A stretch of 14,327 nucleotides of DNA, from the NCBI GenBank assembly GCA_018814055.1, contig JAHJAL010000026.1, positions 1 to 14,327 on the forward strand, in the 5' to 3' direction. This document shows, piece after piece, positions 1 to 14,327 of the stretch. The position numbers and the translations under genes are program-made. How positions within the stretch are numbered: position 1 is the stretch's first letter; every line of letters starts with the position of its first letter. The DNA comes from Patescibacteria group bacterium. GTDB taxonomy: Bacteria; Patescibacteriota; JAHJAL01. Under the pieces are notes generated by a model. The model ran no database searches. It was not told the origin of the DNA and saw only the letters and a list, made by a program, of their open reading frames with translations.

Positions 1-632
1 CCAAAATTCAATACCGATGCTCGTTGTTTGATATCGATATACATCCCCGGCCCCATCGTATTGACCGCCACTATCCCATCCGCCCCGCCTGCCTCTCCCG
101 CTTTGGCCACCTCACCCAATCGATCACTGTTGGGAGACAATTTGATAAACACCGGAATTTTCGTTTTGGCTTTTACCCTCTTTGTTACCTCTTCTACAAA
201 TTCTGGTGTATTTTGTCCGGCCATTGTCCCAAAACCAGGAGTGTGTGGGCATGATAGTACCACCTCTACTCCCGCAAACTCATCACTCAAAAAATTTTCT
301 GCCAAAAAGGAATAATCGTCAACATTTTGTCCCGTGATACTAGCCCAAATTGGCGCGCCCAAATCATTTAGATCAGCAAATTCTTGTTTGGCCGCCTCAT
401 ATCCCGGGTTTGAATACCCAACCGCATTCAAAAACCCACCCTCCACCGGATGCATATTGGGCGCTTTGTGTCCCTGGCGCGGCTCTTTACTGATTGATTT
501 GATCACGCACCCGCCGGCTCCATGATCAATCATATCACCAACGGATGCTTTGCTAAGACCCATCACCCCCGACGCCAATATCGTTGGATTCTTCAATCTT
601 ATGCCAGCTATTTCTACCGCCAAATTAGTCAT
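1..632 (-). CDS. pyrD: Dihydroorotate dehydrogenase-like protein (class 1), C-terminus cut by window edge
   Basis: FMN-dependent TIM-barrel enzyme; the family oxidises dihydroorotate to orotate in de novo pyrimidine synthesis. The 210 visible residues show FMN/substrate-site motifs: IKSISKEPR (44-52), LNAVGYSNPG (68-77), LSCPH with Cys128, FIKLSPN (162-168), and AVNTMGPGMYIDI (189-201). A Cys at the catalytic-base position is the class 1 signature (class 2 uses Ser). The start ATG (630-632) directly abuts the argG stop (633-635), with no Shine-Dalgarno, so translational coupling is likely. Odd points: relative to Lactococcus DHODA numbering as I recall it, the orotate-binding Asn three residues before the catalytic Cys is Val125, and the Asn two residues after it is His130; Asn69 and Asn191 are kept. 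It may be a divergent PyrD or a DHODH-like enzyme with another substrate. Family membership is confident, substrate less so. Confidence 0.85.
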   Translation of the reverse strand, partial: MTNLAVEIAGIRLKNPTILASGVMGLSKASVGDMIDHGAGGCVIKSISKEPRQGHKAPNMHPVEGGFLNAVGYSNPGYEAAKQEFADLNDLGAPIWASITGQNVDDYSFLAENFLSDEFAGVEVVLSCPHTPGFGTMAGQNTPEFVEEVTKRVKAKTKIPVFIKLSPNSDRLGEVAKAGEAGGADGIVAVNTMGPGMYIDIKQRASVLNF

Positions 633-2261
633 TTAGTCAATATTACACACCAGTAAACTAGCCATCTTGCCCACCATCTGCTCGGCATTACCTATATCGG
701 TAATCAAAGGAATCTTTTTGTAAATAGCTAACTTCCTGATTCGATCCCCATCAGTCTTATCACCATTTACATTGTCTTCGGGCGAAGGAATGTTAATCAC
801 CAAGTCATAATATTTCTGCATCATCATTGTATCGATATTTGGCTCTTTTTCCTGAGAAATTTTGTGCACCAATTTACTATTTACATCATTTTCCATCAAG
901 AAATCATTGGTTTTTGTGGTAGCATGCAGCTGACAACCGCATTTATCAAGCTGTCTGATTACTTCCAGCAGTCTTCGTTTGTTTACCTCCCCGCCGATTG
1001 ACACAAGTACATTTTTGGCAGTCATCTTGGCCATTTTCATCTGCAAAGTATGCAGCTCGATAAATCCCGGTGAAGCATTCTGATTAAATGTTTCATCTCT
1101 ATTAAACGTGGCCATCTTGGCGTCAAATAGGGCATAGGGCGATTGTATCGCCACCGCCTCCACACTGCCTTTGTACAAGCGGAGTTTGATCGTACCAGTA
1201 ACCTTTTTGTTGACTGAGTCAATAAATGCATTCAAATCATCCATCAGTGGCTCATACCATAACCCCGCGTAACAATTATATGCCCACTCCTGATCAACCG
1301 TTTCTTTGAATTTGTTTTCTATCCGCGTACAAACGTATTTTTCCAAATTTCTATGCGCCTTGATAATTACCGCTGCCGCCGGTTGTTCATAAACTCCCCG
1401 GACTTTTAGACCCACCACTCTATCTTCCAGATGATGCACAATCCCTACCCCGTGCCGGCCGGCCAATTTATTTAGATATATTATCAACTCGCTCAGCTTC
1501 ATCTGAATTCCATTCAAAGACGTCGGCAACCCCTTCTCAAATTCCAGGTCAATAATCTCCTCTTTATTCGGAGCCGCGTTGGGATTGGCGCATACTTGCA
1601 AAAACTTGTCCATTGGTGGTACCAATTCCGGATCTTCGATTTCGCCACCTTCACAAGTTACTCCCCACATATTGTCGTCAGCCGAATATGGCTTATCAAC
1701 CGTATTGGGGATAGGTATATTATGTTTCCTGGCATACTCAATCTCTTCCTCTCGTCCCATACCCCATTCCCGCACCGGCGCGATTACTTTCATGCTTGGA
1801 TTCAACGTTATTACCGTACCATCAATCCTCACTTGATCATTACCTTTACCCGTACAACCATGAGCAATAGTATCCGCTTTTTCCCGGATAGCCGTCTCCA
1901 CCGCCAATTTGGCCAAAAGCGGCCGGCCCAGCGGGGTACTCAAAAAATAATCTCCCTGGTAATGTGCGTTGGCCCTGATTCCTTTGGCGATGTAATTATT
2001 GGCAAATTCATCTTTGGCATCCACTACAATCGATTTAATCGCTCCCAATTTCAATGCCTTCTGGCGTATCTCTTCCAAATCATCCACTTGTTGACCGATG
2101 TCAATACACAGCGCAATCACTTCTGCCCGGTATTTATCTTGAATCCACTTGACCATCACTGATGTATCCAACCCTCCCGAATATAAGAGCACCACCCTAT
2201 TTACTTCATCTGCCGACTTGGGCTCGTACTTGGCAATCGGAATGTATTTTGACTCCTCCAT
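633..2261 (-). CDS. argG: Argininosuccinate synthase fused to a C-terminal MGS-like domain
   Basis: ArgG joins citrulline and aspartate, using ATP, to make argininosuccinate. Residues 20-415 carry the family motifs: the PP-loop YSGGLDTSV (27-35), IDIGQ (53-57), HGCTGKGNDQVR (134-145), and the later GRHGVG and RGVYE motifs. The protein is 542 residues, against about 400 for ordinary ArgG. The extra 126 residues (417-542, about 636-1013) resemble the MGS-like domain that ends carbamoyl-phosphate synthase large subunit: a start VLVSIGG, then LHATTKTNDFL, a YYDLVINIP strand, and DGDRIRKLAIYKKIPLITD. In known proteins this fold binds phosphorylated effectors such as UMP or IMP, so I infer allosteric control. 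The start is backed by CAGGAG 7 bases upstream (2269-2274). Some ArgG positions are diverged (LEDR for VENR; YEQPAAA for YETPGG). pyrD follows without a gap. Confidence 0.93.
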   Translation of the reverse strand: MEESKYIPIAKYEPKSADEVNRVVLLYSGGLDTSVMVKWIQDKYRAEVIALCIDIGQQVDDLEEIRQKALKLGAIKSIVVDAKDEFANNYIAKGIRANAHYQGDYFLSTPLGRPLLAKLAVETAIREKADTIAHGCTGKGNDQVRIDGTVITLNPSMKVIAPVREWGMGREEEIEYARKHNIPIPNTVDKPYSADDNMWGVTCEGGEIEDPELVPPMDKFLQVCANPNAAPNKEEIIDLEFEKGLPTSLNGIQMKLSELIIYLNKLAGRHGVGIVHHLEDRVVGLKVRGVYEQPAAAVIIKAHRNLEKYVCTRIENKFKETVDQEWAYNCYAGLWYEPLMDDLNAFIDSVNKKVTGTIKLRLYKGSVEAVAIQSPYALFDAKMATFNRDETFNQNASPGFIELHTLQMKMAKMTAKNVLVSIGGEVNKRRLLEVIRQLDKCGCQLHATTKTNDFLMENDVNSKLVHKISQEKEPNIDTMMMQKYYDLVINIPSPEDNVNGDKTDGDRIRKLAIYKKIPLITDIGNAEQMVGKMASLLVCNID

Positions 2262-2298
2262 GATTTTTCTCCTGTTTACAAATTATTAATAAATTGAT

Positions 2299-2432
2299 TG
2301 TGTGAATTATTTTATATTATGTTCCTAATTTATGTGAACGCGCCTGTTTGAGCTCTCACCTTAATGTACGATGGTGAAAAGAGTGAGTCTGCGACACATA
2401 AATTAGGAACATAATATAAAATAATTCACACA
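2299..2432. repeat. 134-bp element with perfect 38-bp terminal inverted repeats
   Basis: Bases 2299-2336 are the exact reverse complement of 2395-2432, separated by a 58-base centre that holds a small TCACC/GGTGA hairpin (about 2356-2378). The arms are AT-rich. The element fills most of the gap between the amidohydrolase stop and the argG start and would lie in the argG leader if transcription reads through. It has the layout of a MITE (miniature inverted-repeat element), but I see no target-site duplication at its edges and no GC-rich stem plus T-run typical of a terminator. Function is unknown; the repeat itself is read directly from the sequence. Confidence 0.85.
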
Positions 2433-2458
2433 GCTCATTTAAATAATAATAACGCCGA

Positions 2459-3430
2459 TCAAACGCTTGTTTTTGACAAAATCTTTTGACCATTGATAGT
2501 AGCGATTTGTACCAATTGTTCAAAATCATAATACCGGCATGCCTCCTGCAATATTCGCATTTCGGTCCACATATCACCATCCACGAAAGGTTGGTAAAAA
2601 TCATATATATTATCCACTCCCAACCCCACCGTCACTCCCGCCGCCAACATTTCCGGGACATTGGCAATCGAATTGTGTATCGGCGCCTGAAATTTATCCA
2701 GCTGTCTCATAGCCAAAGCCGCCGATGGACACACCACCACGCTTACTCCGCTGTCCGCCATCGATTGATATATTTCCCGACGAACCTGTGGCGGCTGAGC
2801 GGAAGTCGATACGGCATGTACCGCCGTTACTTCTCCCTGCATATGGTACCTTTTGGTATATTCAATCAGTATGGACGTATCGCGCTCGTATGGATTATTC
2901 TCCTGATCGATATGTACATGCAGTGGTTTTTTGAGATTTTTGGCTATGGCAAACAGATAATCCAAATTTTCCCGATCAAGCGGCCGATCCTTTGAGGGCA
3001 AACCACCGGCCATATCCGCTTTGGCAGTCAATTCCTCGTATAAATTTCTAGCGCGATTATCCACCAATCCCCCCAATGGCTGAGTAATAATCAAAAAATT
3101 AATCCTATCTTTATAGTCATTTTTTACTGTCAAAGCCGCGTCAATGTTTTTGGCACCGACGGCCTCATAAGCATCGATAAAACTGCCCGTTGTTTTGACA
3201 CCCTGGTCGATCATTATATCCAAACATCGCCTGATCCTATCCTTTACCTCTTCTATACTCGAATTACGCTTGATATCATCACTCATGTGCCATTTCTTTT
3301 CCATATCCACCATACTCTCAGCCAGTCTTTCTTTGGAAATGTAAAATGCTTTATCAAAATGGCCGTGACAATTCACAAACCCACCCTGTTGTCTAATCTC
3401 CCTCAATAATTCCTGCTTCAAGTTTTGCAT
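2459..3430 (-). CDS. Cytosine deaminase-like metal-dependent amidohydrolase (compact form)
   Basis: A 323-residue amidohydrolase-superfamily TIM barrel. Likely metal ligands by analogy with CodA: HGHFDKAF (His22, His24), HVHID (His173), AVHAVS (His205) and GVDNIYDFYQPF (Asp273); the last block resembles the GxDD..D..P loop of cytosine deaminases. CodA-type enzymes have about 420 residues with an N-terminal beta-sandwich half. Here the barrel motif comes at residue 22, so that half is missing. The Glu that follows HxD in CodA (HCDE) and acts in proton transfer is Gln176 here, so cytosine may not be the substrate. No Shine-Dalgarno precedes the ATG. Its position upstream of argG and pyrD suggests a pyrimidine or related amide substrate, but that is inference. 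Confidence 0.8.
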   Translation of the reverse strand: MQNLKQELLREIRQQGGFVNCHGHFDKAFYISKERLAESMVDMEKKWHMSDDIKRNSSIEEVKDRIRRCLDIMIDQGVKTTGSFIDAYEAVGAKNIDAALTVKNDYKDRINFLIITQPLGGLVDNRARNLYEELTAKADMAGGLPSKDRPLDRENLDYLFAIAKNLKKPLHVHIDQENNPYERDTSILIEYTKRYHMQGEVTAVHAVSTSAQPPQVRREIYQSMADSGVSVVVCPSAALAMRQLDKFQAPIHNSIANVPEMLAAGVTVGLGVDNIYDFYQPFVDGDMWTEMRILQEACRYYDFEQLVQIATINGQKILSKTSV

Positions 3431-4371: not shown

Positions 4372-4407
4372 TTATATTGATAAATGATTGATCATTTATC
4401 AATATAA
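4372..4407. repeat. Perfect 16-bp palindrome abutting the RAYT start codon
   Basis: Bases 4372-4387 pair exactly with 4392-4407 around the loop TTGA. The right arm ends one base before the ATG at 4409, where a ribosome-binding site would be expected and none is seen. It could be an operator, a translation-blocking hairpin, or the imprinted foot of the mobile module. An in-frame TTG at 4388 lies in the loop, but starting there would make the hairpin part of the gene and extend the protein by seven untypical residues. Confidence 0.8.
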
Positions 4408-4408
4408 T

Positions 4409-4987
4409 ATGGCAAAACGTCTCTATAAAAACAAATACCGCATCAAAACTACTCGTTTGCAAGGTTGGGATTACGCCGATCCCGGATTGTATTTTATTAC
4501 GATATGTACTTATAAAAAGATACATTATTTCGGACATGTCAAAAATAAAAAGATGATATTGAATAACGCGGGCTGTATAGCACATGAATTCTGGCTCAAC
4601 ATATCAAAATATAACAAAAATACTTCATTACACGAATTTATTGTTATGCCAAACCACATACACGGTATTCTGGAAGTCATCTCAAACCAATCAAAGGGTA
4701 ATTTAGATAATAAACAATGTTGCAATCGTAGAGACGTAGCAATGCTACGTCTCTACGGTAAACAAAAATTTTTATCACATATATCTCCAAAACACAGCTC
4801 AATATCCACTATTATTCGATCATATAAATCTGCCTGCACCAAACAAATTCGTCAAATTAATCCCGATTTCTCCTGGCAATCTCGATTTTACGAACACATC
4901 ATCGATGACGATTTTGCTTATGACCAAATCCGCTTCTATATCAAAACCAATCCTAAATACTGGCATGTTGATCGAAATAATATTTGA
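4409..4987 (+). CDS. REP-associated tyrosine transposase (RAYT), Y1/IS200-like HUH family
   Basis: A 192-residue protein of the TnpA-REP family, single-strand endonucleases that cut and join REP hairpins. Seen: GWDYADPGLYFITICT (19-34), the HUH metal motif MPNHIHGIL (80-88; His83, His85), the nucleophile region IIRSYKSACTK (136-145, likely Tyr139), and the family end WQSRFYEHII plus YIKTNPKYW. Residues 107-117 (RRDVAMLRLYG) are encoded by an intact REP palindrome inside the frame, in the loop between HUH and Tyr motifs where the family varies in length; all catalytic motifs are kept. I prefer ATG 4409 over the upstream TTG because MAKRLYKNKYR is a more typical N-terminus. No Shine-Dalgarno. 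REP copies 1 and 3 flank the gene. Confidence 0.9.
   Translation: MAKRLYKNKYRIKTTRLQGWDYADPGLYFITICTYKKIHYFGHVKNKKMILNNAGCIAHEFWLNISKYNKNTSLHEFIVMPNHIHGILEVISNQSKGNLDNKQCCNRRDVAMLRLYGKQKFLSHISPKHSSISTIIRSYKSACTKQIRQINPDFSWQSRFYEHIIDDDFAYDQIRFYIKTNPKYWHVDRNNI
4727..4757. repeat. REP-like palindrome, copy 2, inside the RAYT gene
   Basis: A perfect palindrome: two 15-base arms around a central A (core 4728-4756, extended by a C/G pair). It is read through as residues 107-117 of the transposase without a stop or frameshift. It is the best-formed of the three copies. Confidence 0.93.
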
Positions 4988-8437: not shown

Positions 8438-10174
8438 TCACTGGATCACTGATTTTGAATAACACCCTTCACAATATATCTTTTCACTTCGCTTTGGGGC
8501 GTACGTTGTCTCAAATCTATTGCTACATATTCCTTCATGCCCATGATTATTTTCACCACAATCACACTGTCTCCTCCACAATTTCCTCGGATTCATTCTA
8601 GAAAATCTTTCTTCGTGTCTCACTTCCGGATGTTTTGTGGGTACAGGAATACCCATCTTGATATACTGCCGCAGTTCACGCGGCATTATTTTGAATAACC
8701 TTCCTGAAACTTCACACCGCAAAATTCCACTCGTACACTTATTTATTTCCTGTTCTGCATCCGGATTCAAAGTCGGATCGTATTTACGAATATCTTCATG
8801 CGGTACATAAAAATCCGCATTTGTCTGAATATCTTCCTCGTCATCCTGCCACTTCATCCCCATTTCTTTTACTTGTTCCCTGTCCCTAGGATAATAATCA
8901 TTGGCAATCGTTTCATTGTAACCAAATGGTGATAAAGCCAATGGAAAATATTCACCCCACTCACCAGTTTTGATCATATGATCAATAATTTTGGGCGCCA
9001 ACTCTTCATACTCCTCCTTGGTGTATTGCTTGTTCAAAATACAATATTCCTTTCGATGCAATCCGACACAGCCAAATAGATGCTTGCCATGCAAACAATA
9101 GATATTATAAAAACAATCATTCAAAGCCATACATCCAAATATATTGGCGCATCTACTAAAACTATATCCAGATGAAGAAACATTGTAACAAAGCTCTCCT
9201 TCGCCAAACGAAAAAATATCCATCAAATCCCGCCCGTCAAAAACAACATTGATATTTTTGCTATCTTCAACATCGGTCGACAAGAAAGCGTTTTTAGCAT
9301 TTATGCAATTTGCCAGCACGTCTCCTGTGCAATTCTCACATCCTGTCATTTTGGCAAATCGACGAGGATGCTGCGCAAAAACACTCTCGGCTTCTTTAAT
9401 TGCTTTATTCTGTCCGTCTATAGTATTCAAATATTCTGCCAATCGTTTATCATAATCCTCTTTGGATAATGGTTGATTGAAAAAATGGTATTCCTTGTGC
9501 CGAAGACCAATGCAGCCGAAACAGTTATTACATCCTACACAATCACGACAGTAATGACATTCATGACAACTATCACAATTAAATAAATATTTCGAACTGT
9601 AACATTTATCACAGTTTACACATTCGTATAACCCTTGCGAACCCATCACCCAGTAATTATCAATATTATCCTGGCCACCAAAGCAGTAGGTATTGTAATA
9701 ACAATCCTGATTTTCACCCCCACCATAGTTCAAATAACAATCTTTGCTGTTTTTCTCGTAATTACAATAATCACTGTTCTCATTGTCCACTCCCAGAAGG
9801 CCCCACAACTTACTATCTTTGAATAATTCGGCAAACTGTTCAAAGAAAGGCCGACTAAAATTATAATCTCTGCCCTGATCAACCGGATCCCATTTATCCG
9901 ACCAAAAACACTCATTACAACAAGCTTTCAAATTTTTGTCGGGTGAATAAATCAGTATTTTTTCCTCACCACACAAATAACACTTGGTTTTGTACAACGC
10001 CCTCTCATTGCGTAACACCATTCGCCGTTGTTCCCTACAATGCGGGCAAATATTTGGCGGAGGTATCAAATATCTTTTTCCGGCAAATTCCGGACTAACC
10101 TTGTCCAGTAACTCCAGGTCATCATCTGCCACCACAAAATCAGCACTGCATTGTTCACAAGTTTTATTTTCCAT
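8438..10174 (-). CDS. Cysteine-rich zinc-ribbon protein A (paralogue of the next gene upstream)
   Basis: A 578-residue soluble protein with 41 cysteines; function unknown. Order: zinc ribbon 1 (Cys6/Cys9 with Cys43/Cys46), zinc ribbon 2 (Cys65/Cys68 with Cys85/Cys86/Cys89), a first cysteine-rich repeat field (about 136-221) ending in CFGCIGL, then a KEY..LNK-type helix module (222-250), GCENCTGD (278-285), a second, poorer field (about 290-370) ending in FGCVGLHRKEYCILNK, a conserved block GEWGEYFP...YNETIANDY (404-427), and a C-terminal cluster (Cys537, 539, 550, 568, 571). The short CxxC repeats at regular spacing recall a small beta-helix or stacked metal loops. The two halves look like an internal duplication. 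No signal peptide, no Shine-Dalgarno. Such proteins occur, to my recollection, in Parcubacteria-type genomes, with unreliable names. Confidence 0.8.
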   Translation of the reverse strand: MENKTCEQCSADFVVADDDLELLDKVSPEFAGKRYLIPPPNICPHCREQRRMVLRNERALYKTKCYLCGEEKILIYSPDKNLKACCNECFWSDKWDPVDQGRDYNFSRPFFEQFAELFKDSKLWGLLGVDNENSDYCNYEKNSKDCYLNYGGGENQDCYYNTYCFGGQDNIDNYWVMGSQGLYECVNCDKCYSSKYLFNCDSCHECHYCRDCVGCNNCFGCIGLRHKEYHFFNQPLSKEDYDKRLAEYLNTIDGQNKAIKEAESVFAQHPRRFAKMTGCENCTGDVLANCINAKNAFLSTDVEDSKNINVVFDGRDLMDIFSFGEGELCYNVSSSGYSFSRCANIFGCMALNDCFYNIYCLHGKHLFGCVGLHRKEYCILNKQYTKEEYEELAPKIIDHMIKTGEWGEYFPLALSPFGYNETIANDYYPRDREQVKEMGMKWQDDEEDIQTNADFYVPHEDIRKYDPTLNPDAEQEINKCTSGILRCEVSGRLFKIMPRELRQYIKMGIPVPTKHPEVRHEERFSRMNPRKLWRRQCDCGENNHGHEGICSNRFETTYAPKRSEKIYCEGCYSKSVIQ

Positions 10175-10298: not shown

Positions 10299-12008
10299 CT
10301 ACACTACTGATTTCTGATAACAATTTTCACAATAAACCCGTTCCTCTCGATCAGGCGCGTACGTCGTCTCAAATTCATTGGGACAACGGAGAGTATGAGT
10401 ATTACAACCCCCCTGACAATCACACTGCCGGTGAAATAATTTCCAAGGATTAATCAATTGCCACCGATCTTTGTATCGTTGGTCCGGGTGTCTTCTGGGA
10501 ATTGGAACACTATTTTTTATATAAAAAACCAACTCCTGCGGCTGTATCTTGTATGGCCGTTTGGTAACCTCACACTCCAAGACCTGATTAACTATATCTT
10601 CATTCACGTCTTTAATGTTATCTGGCACTTCAAAACCAGAAGTTTTGACCAGATTATCAACTATTTCTTTCCATCGTCCGCCTATTTTAGCCGCTTCCTC
10701 CTGGCTCATAGGGAAATAATCATTGGCAATTGTCTCATTATAAGCAAATGGCGAAATGCCGGTCGGAAAAAACTCCCCCCACTCACCAGTTGATTGCATG
10801 TGTTCAATAATCCTGGGCACCAATTCTTCATATTCCTCTTTTGTAAATTGCTTGTTCAAAATACAATACTCAGCTTTACGCAAACCAGTGCAACCAAAGC
10901 AATTACTACATCCATGACAAAAATCACAATAAATTATGTTTTTGTTACTCGTCCAACATGAAAAACAGAATAAACCATGATAAAGAGTTTCACAACCAAT
11001 CGTCTCGTAATTGTATTGCGAAGTTTCATAACCTGTAAAACAATCATCATAGCACTCCTTGCCACCAGGAGAACCATACATATATTTGCAATCTTCCAAT
11101 TTTTCACAATCAAAACAAACCTTTGAATTTTTGCAATTCAACAAATAATCACCAGTACAATTTTCACACTTCAACAAATCGGCATATGGACGAATAGCAT
11201 TTTTGAATACCCGTAGGAAAGTTTCGTAATATTTTTTTGATTGCTCATAAGAGCCAAAATCGTACTCCTTAATACGATTCTCATATTTTTCCCGACTTAG
11301 TTGTTCATTGTTAATACAATATTGTTTTTTTCTCAAATTAGAACAGAATAAACAATCCCGACAACCCTTCAAATCGTAAGAATAATAACAATTTGAACTG
11401 TTGGCGCCATCTACACAAAAACGGCTATTACTTAAGCTGCTGCAACCAACACATTCATATATATTTTCACAATGATCTTTACAATAAATACTATCAACTA
11501 CATTAACCGAATCATGTGTTGTTCTCGAAAATAAGACTTTTTCATTTTTACCAATATCAAAAGACATATAGCAATCTTTATTGCCCACTGCATGATTTAT
11601 AAAGTCACTATTTACATGATTAACGTTTACCAGAGATATTCTAGGCACTTTCTCACGCAAACCATTGAATTGTTCAAAAAACGGCCGGCCAAAATCAAAT
11701 TCTTGCCCAAAATCCCGCGCATCCCAGTCATCCCCCCACCATTCTTTTTGACTGTATACTTTAAATGGTGAATCCTGATCATAGATCGTCACAATCATCT
11801 CCCCGCCTTTATCGCACTTTCTCTGATAAAGCCTTCTCTCATTTCTCATCGACAATCGCCGCCGAAAACGGCAGTCACAACACAAAGTAGGGGAGGGAAT
11901 CAGATATTTCTTCCCCCCGAACTCCGGGCTAACCTTTTGGTAAAATTCTAAATCTTCATCTTCCACTACAAAACCAACACTACACCGTTTACAAACCTTT
12001 TTTTCCAT
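10299..12008 (-). CDS. Cysteine-rich zinc-ribbon protein B (paralogue of A)
   Basis: A 569-residue tandem paralogue of the next gene, also with 41 cysteines; function unknown. The N-terminus aligns without gaps: ribbon 1 is kept (Cys6, Cys9, Cys43/44, Cys46), with shared KVSPEF and RNER segments. Ribbon 2 is lost: of the partner's five cysteines only Cys65 remains, the others being Gly68, Tyr85, Ser86 and Glu89. Then come a cysteine-rich field (146-222), the LRKKQYCINNEQLSREKY module (225-242), CENCTGD (281-287), a second field (292-373) ending CFGCTGL, AEYCILNKQFTKEEYEEL (379-396), GEWGEFFP and YNETIANDY (423-431), and the C-terminal cluster (Cys529, 531, 535, 542, 560, 563). No Shine-Dalgarno; a terminator separates it from the secreted-protein gene upstream, so it probably has its own promoter. 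Confidence 0.8.
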   Translation of the reverse strand: MEKKVCKRCSVGFVVEDEDLEFYQKVSPEFGGKKYLIPSPTLCCDCRFRRRLSMRNERRLYQRKCDKGGEMIVTIYDQDSPFKVYSQKEWWGDDWDARDFGQEFDFGRPFFEQFNGLREKVPRISLVNVNHVNSDFINHAVGNKDCYMSFDIGKNEKVLFSRTTHDSVNVVDSIYCKDHCENIYECVGCSSLSNSRFCVDGANSSNCYYSYDLKGCRDCLFCSNLRKKQYCINNEQLSREKYENRIKEYDFGSYEQSKKYYETFLRVFKNAIRPYADLLKCENCTGDYLLNCKNSKVCFDCEKLEDCKYMYGSPGGKECYDDCFTGYETSQYNYETIGCETLYHGLFCFSCWTSNKNIIYCDFCHGCSNCFGCTGLRKAEYCILNKQFTKEEYEELVPRIIEHMQSTGEWGEFFPTGISPFAYNETIANDYFPMSQEEAAKIGGRWKEIVDNLVKTSGFEVPDNIKDVNEDIVNQVLECEVTKRPYKIQPQELVFYIKNSVPIPRRHPDQRYKDRWQLINPWKLFHRQCDCQGGCNTHTLRCPNEFETTYAPDREERVYCENCYQKSVV

Positions 12009-12068: not shown

Positions 12069-12653
12069 TTAAACTATCACTATATATGGCAAATTATACG
12101 CCTCACCCTCATACTCCCAATTCGGATCAAAATTTGTCAAATGAGTGGCCTCATCCCAGTCAGTGGTATAGAAATGATGCAAAAAGACCGGACTCCAAAA
12201 ACGATAGACTACATCCGACACCACTTGGTAACCAACTGGATAAGCAAAATAAGCTATTCCTTCGTACTCCCAATTGGGGTCAAAATCCCGCACCTGCACC
12301 ATTTCATTGTAATCAGTCGTATAAAAATGCCCCTCAAACACCGGGCTCCAAAATCGGTAAACGGGAATACTGTCCGGTTCTTGCATATAGTAAGCTTCGC
12401 CGATAGTACCTTCATAATTCCAGTTGCTATCTTCATTGGCGACATGCATCGCTTCATTCCAATCGATAGTATAAAAATGCCCATGAAACACCGGGCTATA
12501 AAACCGATAAACCAGATCTGTCTGAAAATTTTGCGACACCGGCAAGGTTATCTGCTGCGACGCGTCAGCCTTGTCATAATCAGCCAACACATATACCGAC
12601 GAAATCAACAACACCAATACCAACATCCACCGCCCAATCTTTGTTTTTTGCAT
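12069..12653 (-). CDS. Secreted protein with three DUF5648-like repeats
   Basis: A 194-residue protein with an N-terminal signal/anchor segment (Lys3-Lys5-Arg8, hydrophobic 9-24) and three tandem repeats of about 40 residues: 48-89, 98-138 and 149-187. Each has the form VYRF(Y/W)SPVF..HFYT.D..E........ (N/D)WNYEG or NWEYEG followed by AY. This is the DUF5648 pattern, seen elsewhere in extracellular bacterial proteins, often beside peptidase or binding domains; its role is not established. Here the repeats form the whole mature protein, too few for a closed propeller unless it oligomerises. It has one of the few clear ribosome sites in the window (AAAAGGAG, 12659-12666, about five bases from the ATG), a candidate -10 at 12698-12703 and its own terminator, so it looks like a well-expressed single-gene unit. 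Confidence 0.85.
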   Translation of the reverse strand: MQKTKIGRWMLVLVLLISSVYVLADYDKADASQQITLPVSQNFQTDLVYRFYSPVFHGHFYTIDWNEAMHVANEDSNWNYEGTIGEAYYMQEPDSIPVYRFWSPVFEGHFYTTDYNEMVQVRDFDPNWEYEGIAYFAYPVGYQVVSDVVYRFWSPVFLHHFYTTDWDEATHLTNFDPNWEYEGEAYNLPYIVIV

Positions 12654-13591: not shown

Positions 13592-14327
13592 ATGCCAAGT
13601 TCATATCAAAAACAATTCCTCAAAAAAAGACATTCATATGTCCCTCTCAGCAACCTCAAAATCAAACAGATAATCAAAAAAGCCACCAACCAAGACATTA
13701 CAAGCAAAAGAAGAATTTTTGAAGGATATGACAATGAAGTTTATGACATCACTTTGACAAATACCGATCATGTCATCCTCCGCGTCAATCACTTTCCCTC
13801 AGCCGGCTTTGCCAATGAAGCCTGGGCGATGGAACAATGTCCTCATATCGGCATTCCTGTCTCCGAAATATTATTATTGGACAAAATAAAATACCTGGGC
13901 CAAGAACATGATATGATGGTCCAAACCAAAATCTCCGGTCAATCCTACAATAATATTTCACAAAAAATCACACCGGCTGAACAAAAACAAATTCTCATCA
14001 AAACTGGTGAATTGATGAGCAAAATCCACACAATCCGGGTCAAAGGCTTTTACCGTCGCAATCCTGTTTGTAACAGTTGGGATTTCCCGAGCTGGAAAAA
14101 ATTTCTGTCCGTTACGATAAGAGACCGCCGGCAGGAAAAACCATATATTACCCAACAAGGATTTACATCAGATGAATTCGATCAAATGATTGGTTATATC
14201 AAAATTTATCAGGACAAGTATCCTTGTCAACAGCCGGTTCTCACTCATAGCGATATTGGCTTGGGGCACGTTTACTTTGACGAACAACTAAACATAGTCG
14301 GCTTAATTGATTTTGGCGAATCCCAAG
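13592..14327 (+). CDS. Aminoglycoside-phosphotransferase-fold kinase (APH family), C-terminus beyond window
   Basis: 245 complete codons are visible and the frame is open to the window end. Early parts match the N-lobe of APH/choline-kinase-like enzymes: GYDNEVYDITLT, HVILRVNHFP (Arg/Asn where many have the ATP-site Lys) and ANEAWAMEQC. The catalytic loop LTHSDIGLGHVYFD (His219, Asp221) is the Brenner motif HxDxxxxN with His in place of the last Asn, a variant known in the family. LIDFGES follows as the metal-binding IDFGD-like motif. Such proteins phosphorylate sugars, amino alcohols or antibiotics; nothing here points to resistance. The ATG lies one base after the stop of the P-loop gene; no Shine-Dalgarno. 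Confidence 0.8.
   Translation, partial: MPSSYQKQFLKKRHSYVPLSNLKIKQIIKKATNQDITSKRRIFEGYDNEVYDITLTNTDHVILRVNHFPSAGFANEAWAMEQCPHIGIPVSEILLLDKIKYLGQEHDMMVQTKISGQSYNNISQKITPAEQKQILIKTGELMSKIHTIRVKGFYRRNPVCNSWDFPSWKKFLSVTIRDRRQEKPYITQQGFTSDEFDQMIGYIKIYQDKYPCQQPVLTHSDIGLGHVYFDEQLNIVGLIDFGESQ

Follow-up and report, generated by a model that had tools for sequence, protein, structure and literature searches.

Why does an argininosuccinate synthase (ArgG) carry a regulatory domain of the type found in carbamoyl-phosphate synthetase, and which pathway does such an enzyme serve? The question is raised by one gene of the window, which is the whole 14,327-nucleotide stretch of DNA analyzed here, a contig from a Patescibacteria genome. 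Features are collected in Table 1, and comparisons were made within a sample of 379 genomes of the phylum, in which the window's own genome is G000.

Table 1. Positions of the ArgG-MGS operon features in the window and of candidate citrulline-forming genes in related loci
Feature	Position	Strand	Remarks
pyrD, class 1 dihydroorotate dehydrogenase	3..632	-	N-terminal 210 aa, cut by contig end; NF005574 191 bits
MGS domain	636..1013	-	residues 417-542 of the fusion; PF02142 at 699-971
ArgG catalytic domain	1014..2261	-	residues 1-416 of the 542-aa fusion
AH-argG intergenic region	2262..2458	-	holds 47-nt inverted repeat
AH amidohydrolase, upstream partner gene	2459..3430	-	323 aa; predicted to act on argininosuccinate
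DDAH / arginine-dihydrolase-like genes	L065:9224-10027, L066:9905-10711, L069:4805-5650		possible citrulline source

A conserved ArgG-MGS family

The gene is a single reading frame that encodes a whole ArgG and then runs on into an MGS domain. The ArgG part gives full-length matches above the curated cut-offs of TIGR00032 (469 bits; cut-off 268) and NF001770 (520 bits; cut-off 334), and its ATP, citrulline, and aspartate motifs are retained in alignments with 6xnq and 1j1z. A profile search of the tail matches Pfam family PF02142 above the gathering score (E 2.5e-14), which confirms the original prediction that this ArgG continues into an MGS fold. The same architecture is common to 119 of the best 120 of 8000 proteins scored in a full-length search (the window's own protein counted), and the sole exception is P0234 (450 aa), which lacks PF02142. 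This rules out a frame accident or an assembly error that joined two proteins, an alternative that had been raised with the prediction. ArgG-MGS is a conserved family and not an accident.

The source labels of the homologues include Magasanikbacteria, Roizmanbacteria, Moranbacteria, Parcubacteria, Microgenomates, and one Bacteriovorax. Among the matches listed, the closest relative is P0002, with 88% identity. The MGS profile matches 72 of the 379 phylum genomes, and a frame of ArgG-MGS length is found in nine (G000, G019, G046, G057, G148, G166, G198, G271, and G218), in each of which ArgG was confirmed by BLAST and TIGR00032. The first eight of these also encode AH, the amidohydrolase described below, and are here called AH-linked. 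With the window as reference, 50 of 50 chosen conserved sites of ArgG-MGS are the same in the other seven AH-linked genomes; the assignment of these sites to particular substrates is our assumption. No description of ArgG-MGS, or of a route from argininosuccinate to pyrimidines, was found in the literature searched (titles and abstracts of open-licence PubMed Central articles, covering part of long result lists), in agreement with the original impression that the fusion was new.

Operon context and genes not found

In the window, the start of pyrD directly abuts the argG-MGS stop, with no gap, and AH lies upstream on the same strand. The genome contains two PyrD pieces, PyrK, PyrE, and PyrF. 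Because the window's pyrD is cut by the contig end, and contig C54 of the same genome opens inside pyrD and continues with pyrK, pyrE, and pyrF, the operon probably comprises six genes, for AH, ArgG-MGS, PyrD, PyrK, PyrE, and PyrF, where we infer the joint across the contig break. In the numbering of the G166 protein, the window covers PyrD positions 1-206 and C54 covers 232-306.

The region between AH and argG includes an inverted repeat whose 47-nt arms (2290-2336 and 2395-2441; 91% match) flank a 58-nt loop. Because the matching gap in G271 spans just 25 bases, the repeat is possibly a small inserted palindromic element. An Rfam search for RNA switches near the operons, conducted on the window and seven loci, gave four tRNAs and nothing else.

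Pyrimidine genes are present in eight of the nine ArgG-MGS loci, and the exception, G019, is on a 5,651-base contig. AH adjoins ArgG-MGS in eight of the nine genomes, and seven of these eight have pyrimidine genes there as well. In G271, genes for AH, ArgG-MGS, an aspartate-ammonia-lyase-like (AspA-like) protein, a PyrD-like protein, and a PyrE-PyrF fusion are on one strand within 7 kb. The order in G166 is ArgG-MGS, AH, PyrD, PyrE, and then PyrF two genes further, and both G198 and G148 have PyrD-like, PyrF, and PyrE genes near ArgG-MGS. PyrF was found in 10 of 11 genomes examined and is missing from G019. A divergent dihydroorotate-dehydrogenase-like protein of ~360 aa replaces class 1 PyrD at L065:7119-8207 and has relatives in L062, L064, L066, and L067.

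The canonical front end of de novo pyrimidine synthesis (CarAB, PyrB, and PyrC) was not found in the eight AH-linked genomes in searches for CarB, PyrB, and PyrC. None of the eight has a PyrC match at E 1e-8, PyrB does not exceed its cut-off in any, and CarB was not found in any, apart from the match of the MGS domain itself and weak ATP-grasp matches (41-49 bits). The apparent absence of carbamoyl-phosphate synthetase is judged from the CarB searches. Carbamoyltransferases below the cut-off are an OTC-like gene in G046 and an ATCase-like gene in G057. Completeness is 82% for G000, 85% for G019, and 99-100% for the other six, of which G166 and G198 are single contigs. In the phylum, 79 of 158 PyrD genomes lack both PyrB and PyrC, and 69 of these 79 also lack AH, in a co-occurrence count that leaves out 14 genomes with weak PyrC matches (87 becoming 73) and the two with distant AH proteins, G109 and G263 (21 becoming 19). 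Gene absence alone is thus weak evidence, and the argument is carried by the operon and by the exchange of partner genes described below.

ArgH, which would complete arginine synthesis, passes its cut-off in only one AH-linked genome, G198. Weak lyase matches to ArgH occur in G148 (77 bits) and G271 (76 bits), the latter being the aspartate-ammonia-lyase-like gene of the operon. G198 also has a second ArgG, free of MGS, that adjoins its ArgH, so the two ArgGs of this genome are divided between contexts. Four MGS-free ArgGs were found in 22 genomes searched: the one beside ArgH in G198, two beside carbamoyltransferase-like pieces in G283 and G308, and one beside neither in G216. The fusion differs from known ArgG enzymes (TIGR00032; 1kh1 and 6xnq) in its C-terminal MGS domain, in its location in a pyrimidine operon, and in that seven of the eight AH-linked genomes have no ArgH over the cut-off. 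It is quite likely that ArgG-MGS belongs to pyrimidine rather than arginine metabolism.

The partner amidohydrolase

AH belongs to a family currently named hypothetical protein in NCBIfam. At E 1e-10 the window AH is matched by 948 proteins, not all of which need be one family, and P0061 is the closest among the matches listed. In fold and sequence AH is nearest to AtzC (2qt3) and to the cytosine deaminase CodA (1k6w), with 20-24% identity. Its invariant residues H22, H24, H173, H205, and D273 align with H/D residues of AtzC, and are presumably metal ligands. AH differs from both enzymes in an invariant D-Q-E (175-177) that follows H173, and its substrate is a prediction. Within this triplet, Q176 is invariant in 51 rows and aligns with AtzC D220, at what we take to be the site of E217, the proton relay of CodA. 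At E 1e-8, no protein of G000, AH included, matches the dihydroorotase model TIGR00857, and dihydroorotase structures are absent from the 50 rows of the AH structure comparison.

AH matches (E 1e-30) occur in 21 of the 379 genomes. The association with ArgG-MGS, in eight of nine genomes, has a Fisher p of 7e-11, which is only a guide because the genomes are not independent. The other 13 AH genomes reveal a second partner: in 11 of them, AH directly adjoins an ArgH that passes the cut-off. The remaining two, in G109 (34% identical) and G263 (30%), are outgroups on the AH tree, and these genomes have no ArgH match. On this tree (29 proteins), the well-supported branches require the ArgG-MGS label to have changed three times or more and the ArgH label twice or more. 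Because argininosuccinate is the metabolite common to ArgG and ArgH, taking it as the substrate of AH requires the fewest assumptions.

A search at E 1e-10 detected no ArgG in 8 of the 11 AH-ArgH genomes, which makes it improbable that ArgH completes arginine synthesis there. PyrB and CarB exceed their cut-offs in 9 of the 11 each, and PyrC is found in 8. Because most AH-ArgH genomes have these canonical genes, AH is not solely a substitute for them. The AH proteins nearest to that of the window among the 11 are from G236 (67%) and G361 (61%), and both genomes lack a PyrB or PyrC match. In G361 (90% complete), genes for CarA, CarB, AH, and ArgH are in a row (L095:7991-15356), PyrE, PyrF, and PyrD are encoded elsewhere (L108), and no match to PyrB, PyrC, or ArgG was found.

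MGS is itself fused to the N terminus of AH in L003, L004, L005, L006, L010, L011, L013, L014, and L017. The carriers are Pseudomonadota, a Myxococcota-labelled MAG, and a Gemmataceae MAG, and include Rhodomicrobium udaipurense JA643 (L010). A plasmid search with an MGS-AH protein revealed distant amidohydrolases only.

The MGS domain and its probable ligand

Residues K428, T448, T451, K467, N490, and D504 of the fusion align with CarB K954, T974, T977, K993, N1015, and D1025. Their conservation in 119 homologues is 94%, 100%, 99%, 99%, 96%, and 100%, respectively, the last alignment having been read by eye against the CarB row. Ligand roles for CarB K954, T974, N1015, and D1025 are our assumption. 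CarB Thr977 and Lys993 are described, in a passage of PMC6245113, as crucial for UMP inhibition and binding. The corresponding T451 and K467 are thus kept in ArgG-MGS. The best solved-structure match is the MGS domain of CPS1. Conservation of K467 where CPS1 has Trp points, at the sequence level, to the CarB type, and sensing of NAG as in CPS1 is less favoured.

In a tree of MGS domains (69 rows, 63 different, 120 columns), those of ArgG, AH, PyrB, an AsnRS-like protein, and P0003 group together in a single branch (99/96) that is separate from CarB, and the ArgG domains are not a single clade inside it. The ArgG domain shares its fold and the aligned residues with the allosteric domain of CarB, but differs in its branch, in its host protein, and in a proline that the window has at the position of CarB T1017. 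Taken together, the MGS domain of ArgG is very likely regulatory, and its ligand is probably a pyrimidine nucleotide.

PyrB proteins with a C-terminal MGS domain of the ArgG-MGS branch are encoded at L070:8862-10181, L071:10120-11457, and L072:2220-3530 (G018, G056, and G038), with pyrF within ~2 kb. Because PyrB catalyzes a step of the ordinary pathway, this arrangement supports pyrimidine feedback as the role of the domain. A protein resembling AsnRS or asparagine synthetase A is also joined to MGS and is found near ArgG-MGS and pyrD (L061:9471-10970 and L062:10180-11598); in G057, its MGS domain and that of the neighbouring ArgG are sisters on the tree. Other C-terminal MGS domains are those of P0003, whose N-terminal part has no Pfam match and is GNAT-like by eye, and of P0057, a radical SAM/B12-binding protein by Pfam.

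A proposed route to the pyrimidine ring

The evidence leans toward a route in which citrulline and aspartate are converted to argininosuccinate, and this to carbamoylaspartate or dihydroorotate plus ornithine, with UMP-type control exerted on ArgG. In the first step, as its conserved active sites suggest, ArgG-MGS would join citrulline and aspartate to argininosuccinate at the expense of ATP. In the second, AH might attack the guanidino carbon and free ornithine, as would suit its genomic context and its AtzC/cytosine-deaminase fold; AtzC frees an alkylamine from a ring carbon. Linear argininosuccinate would yield N-carbamoyl-L-aspartate, and a six-membered cyclic form, which we assume could be the form that AH uses, would yield L-dihydroorotate directly. 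The argininosuccinate anhydride is described as a five-membered ring in a passage of PMC6918381, which counts against this cyclic variant. PyrD/PyrK, PyrE, and PyrF would then lead to UMP by the ordinary steps. The MGS domain would restrain the first step on binding UMP or another pyrimidine nucleotide, as it does on CarB. Pyrimidine synthesis would then proceed without carbamoyl phosphate, and ArgG-MGS would be its regulated first enzyme. We somewhat favour the reading that ArgG-MGS and AH stand in for CarA, CarB, PyrB, and PyrC. The fusion and its conservation, the operon contexts, the failure to find the canonical genes, and the exchange of AH partners are observations, whereas both reactions and the ligand are predictions.

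A broader form of the proposal is evenly balanced between right and wrong. It holds that neither carbamoyl phosphate nor aspartate carbamoyltransferase takes part when Patescibacteria make the pyrimidine ring. Argininosuccinate would come from UMP-controlled ArgG-MGS (citrulline plus aspartate) or, in AH-ArgH genomes, from ArgH run in reverse (arginine plus fumarate, with no ATP), and the AtzC-like AH would convert it to ornithine and dihydroorotate, directly or through carbamoylaspartate.

Candidate sources of citrulline are the DDAH / arginine-dihydrolase-like genes near ArgG-MGS in G019, G148, and G218 (222-276 bits; cut-off 300) and the OTC-like gene of G046. The window's own genome, which is 82% complete, yielded no citrulline-source gene. 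The presence of such a source in only some genomes counts against the proposed pathway, as does the ATCase-like gene of G057. No arginine or pyrimidine reference protein has a match among the neighbours of the Proteobacterial MGS-AH genes examined, which also counts against it.

Among the ArgG-MGS genomes, G218 alone has no AH, and it lacks ArgH as well. The neighbours of its ArgG-MGS are an arginine-dihydrolase-like gene, PyrB, CarB, CarA, and a PyrC-like gene (a TIGR00857 match below the cut-off). Its ArgG-MGS departs from the window at 6 of the 50 chosen sites, including S28 (in the ATP loop), S193, and D504 and R509 of the MGS domain, compared with none in the other seven genomes, although the sites were picked from alignments without G218, a choice that favours its looking divergent. 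On the ArgG tree, the G218 branch measures 0.93 and that of its sister G148, where AH is retained, 0.011. These data fit a degenerating ArgG-MGS that lost constraint once the canonical front end was present. That G218 keeps the fusion without AH or ArgH nevertheless counts against the proposed pathway.

Alternative roles for AH and the fusion

AH might instead substitute for arginine deiminase and make citrulline for ArgG-MGS, with an unrecognized enzyme splitting argininosuccinate to a pyrimidine precursor. Such a function would suit the place of AH in the deaminase branch and the lack of an arginine-dihydrolase-like gene in the window's own genome. However, G019, G148, and G218 already have such genes near ArgG-MGS, argininosuccinate would be left a dead end in seven of eight genomes, and the AH-ArgH pairs without ArgG would be unaccounted for. 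This explanation is unlikely.

Alternately, AH could simply be a new type of dihydroorotase, with carbamoylaspartate coming from elsewhere and ArgG-MGS serving aspartate or arginine balance. The fold and sequence of AH, nearest to AtzC and cytosine deaminase, argue against this, as does the failure to find CarB, or PyrB over the cut-off, in the eight AH-linked genomes. AH does occupy an operon position where PyrC might stand in the eight genomes that lack PyrC, and the CarA-CarB-AH-ArgH row of G361 has no PyrC to accompany it; yet PyrC is already present in 8 of the 11 AH-ArgH genomes. We consider this role slightly less likely still.

It is quite improbable that AH is a repair enzyme that reopens cyclic argininosuccinate to the linear form while PyrD is fed by dihydroorotate or orotate from a host or neighbours. 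This reading leaves the MGS domain on ArgG, the pyrimidine operon, and ArgG without ArgH in seven of eight genomes unexplained, even though AH is a partner of ArgG as well as of ArgH, PyrD without PyrB and PyrC is found in many genomes of the phylum, and the formation of a cyclic anhydride by argininosuccinate is described in the same passage of PMC6918381.

The original prediction regarded a nucleotide-sensing ArgG as a control point for arginine synthesis; its first part stands, in that the MGS domain is of the CarB type and probably senses nucleotides, but throttling of arginine synthesis, despite the retained ArgG family residues, is very improbable and was rejected, given the lack of an ArgH over the cut-off in seven of eight genomes, the pyrimidine context of eight of nine loci with the window gene itself between an AtzC-like amidohydrolase and pyrD, and the separate MGS-free ArgG beside ArgH in G198.

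Relation to known pathways

The usual teaching is that de novo pyrimidine synthesis is nearly universal and that carbamoyl phosphate and aspartate carbamoyltransferase invariably stand at its start. Proof of the ring-building step proposed for ArgG-MGS and AH would establish a novel type of entry to this pathway. Uncultured bacteria with small genomes would then use a different ring-building chemistry, in which citrulline or arginine supplies the carbon and nitrogen of the carbamoyl group, and enzymes of the arginine cycle would have been turned into pyrimidine enzymes. Some apparent pyrimidine auxotrophies of Patescibacteria would represent a working pathway, the AH family would gain a function, and the occurrence of MGS on ArgG, PyrB, the AsnRS-like protein, and AH would be explained.

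The nearest system in the literature searched is the arginine synthetase pathway of Thermococcus (PMC13260591), in which organisms without carbamoyl-phosphate synthetase take the carbamoyl group of pyrimidines from arginine via citrulline. There, OTC remakes carbamoyl phosphate from citrulline for the ordinary pathway. The route proposed here likewise has arginine or citrulline as its carbamoyl source, but CarB, PyrC, and PyrB over the cut-off were not found, and ArgG and AH would take the place of these three. The proposed replacement thus goes further than the Thermococcus route.

Other genes in the window

Two neighbouring genes (8438-10174 and 10299-12008, minus strand) encode proteins (578 and 569 aa) that are rich in cysteine, resemble each other by eye, have many CxxC motifs, and have no Pfam match. 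An IS200-like transposase just under the Pfam cut-off is encoded at 4388-4987, a DUF5648 protein at 12069-12653, and an APH-family phosphotransferase at 13595-14326.
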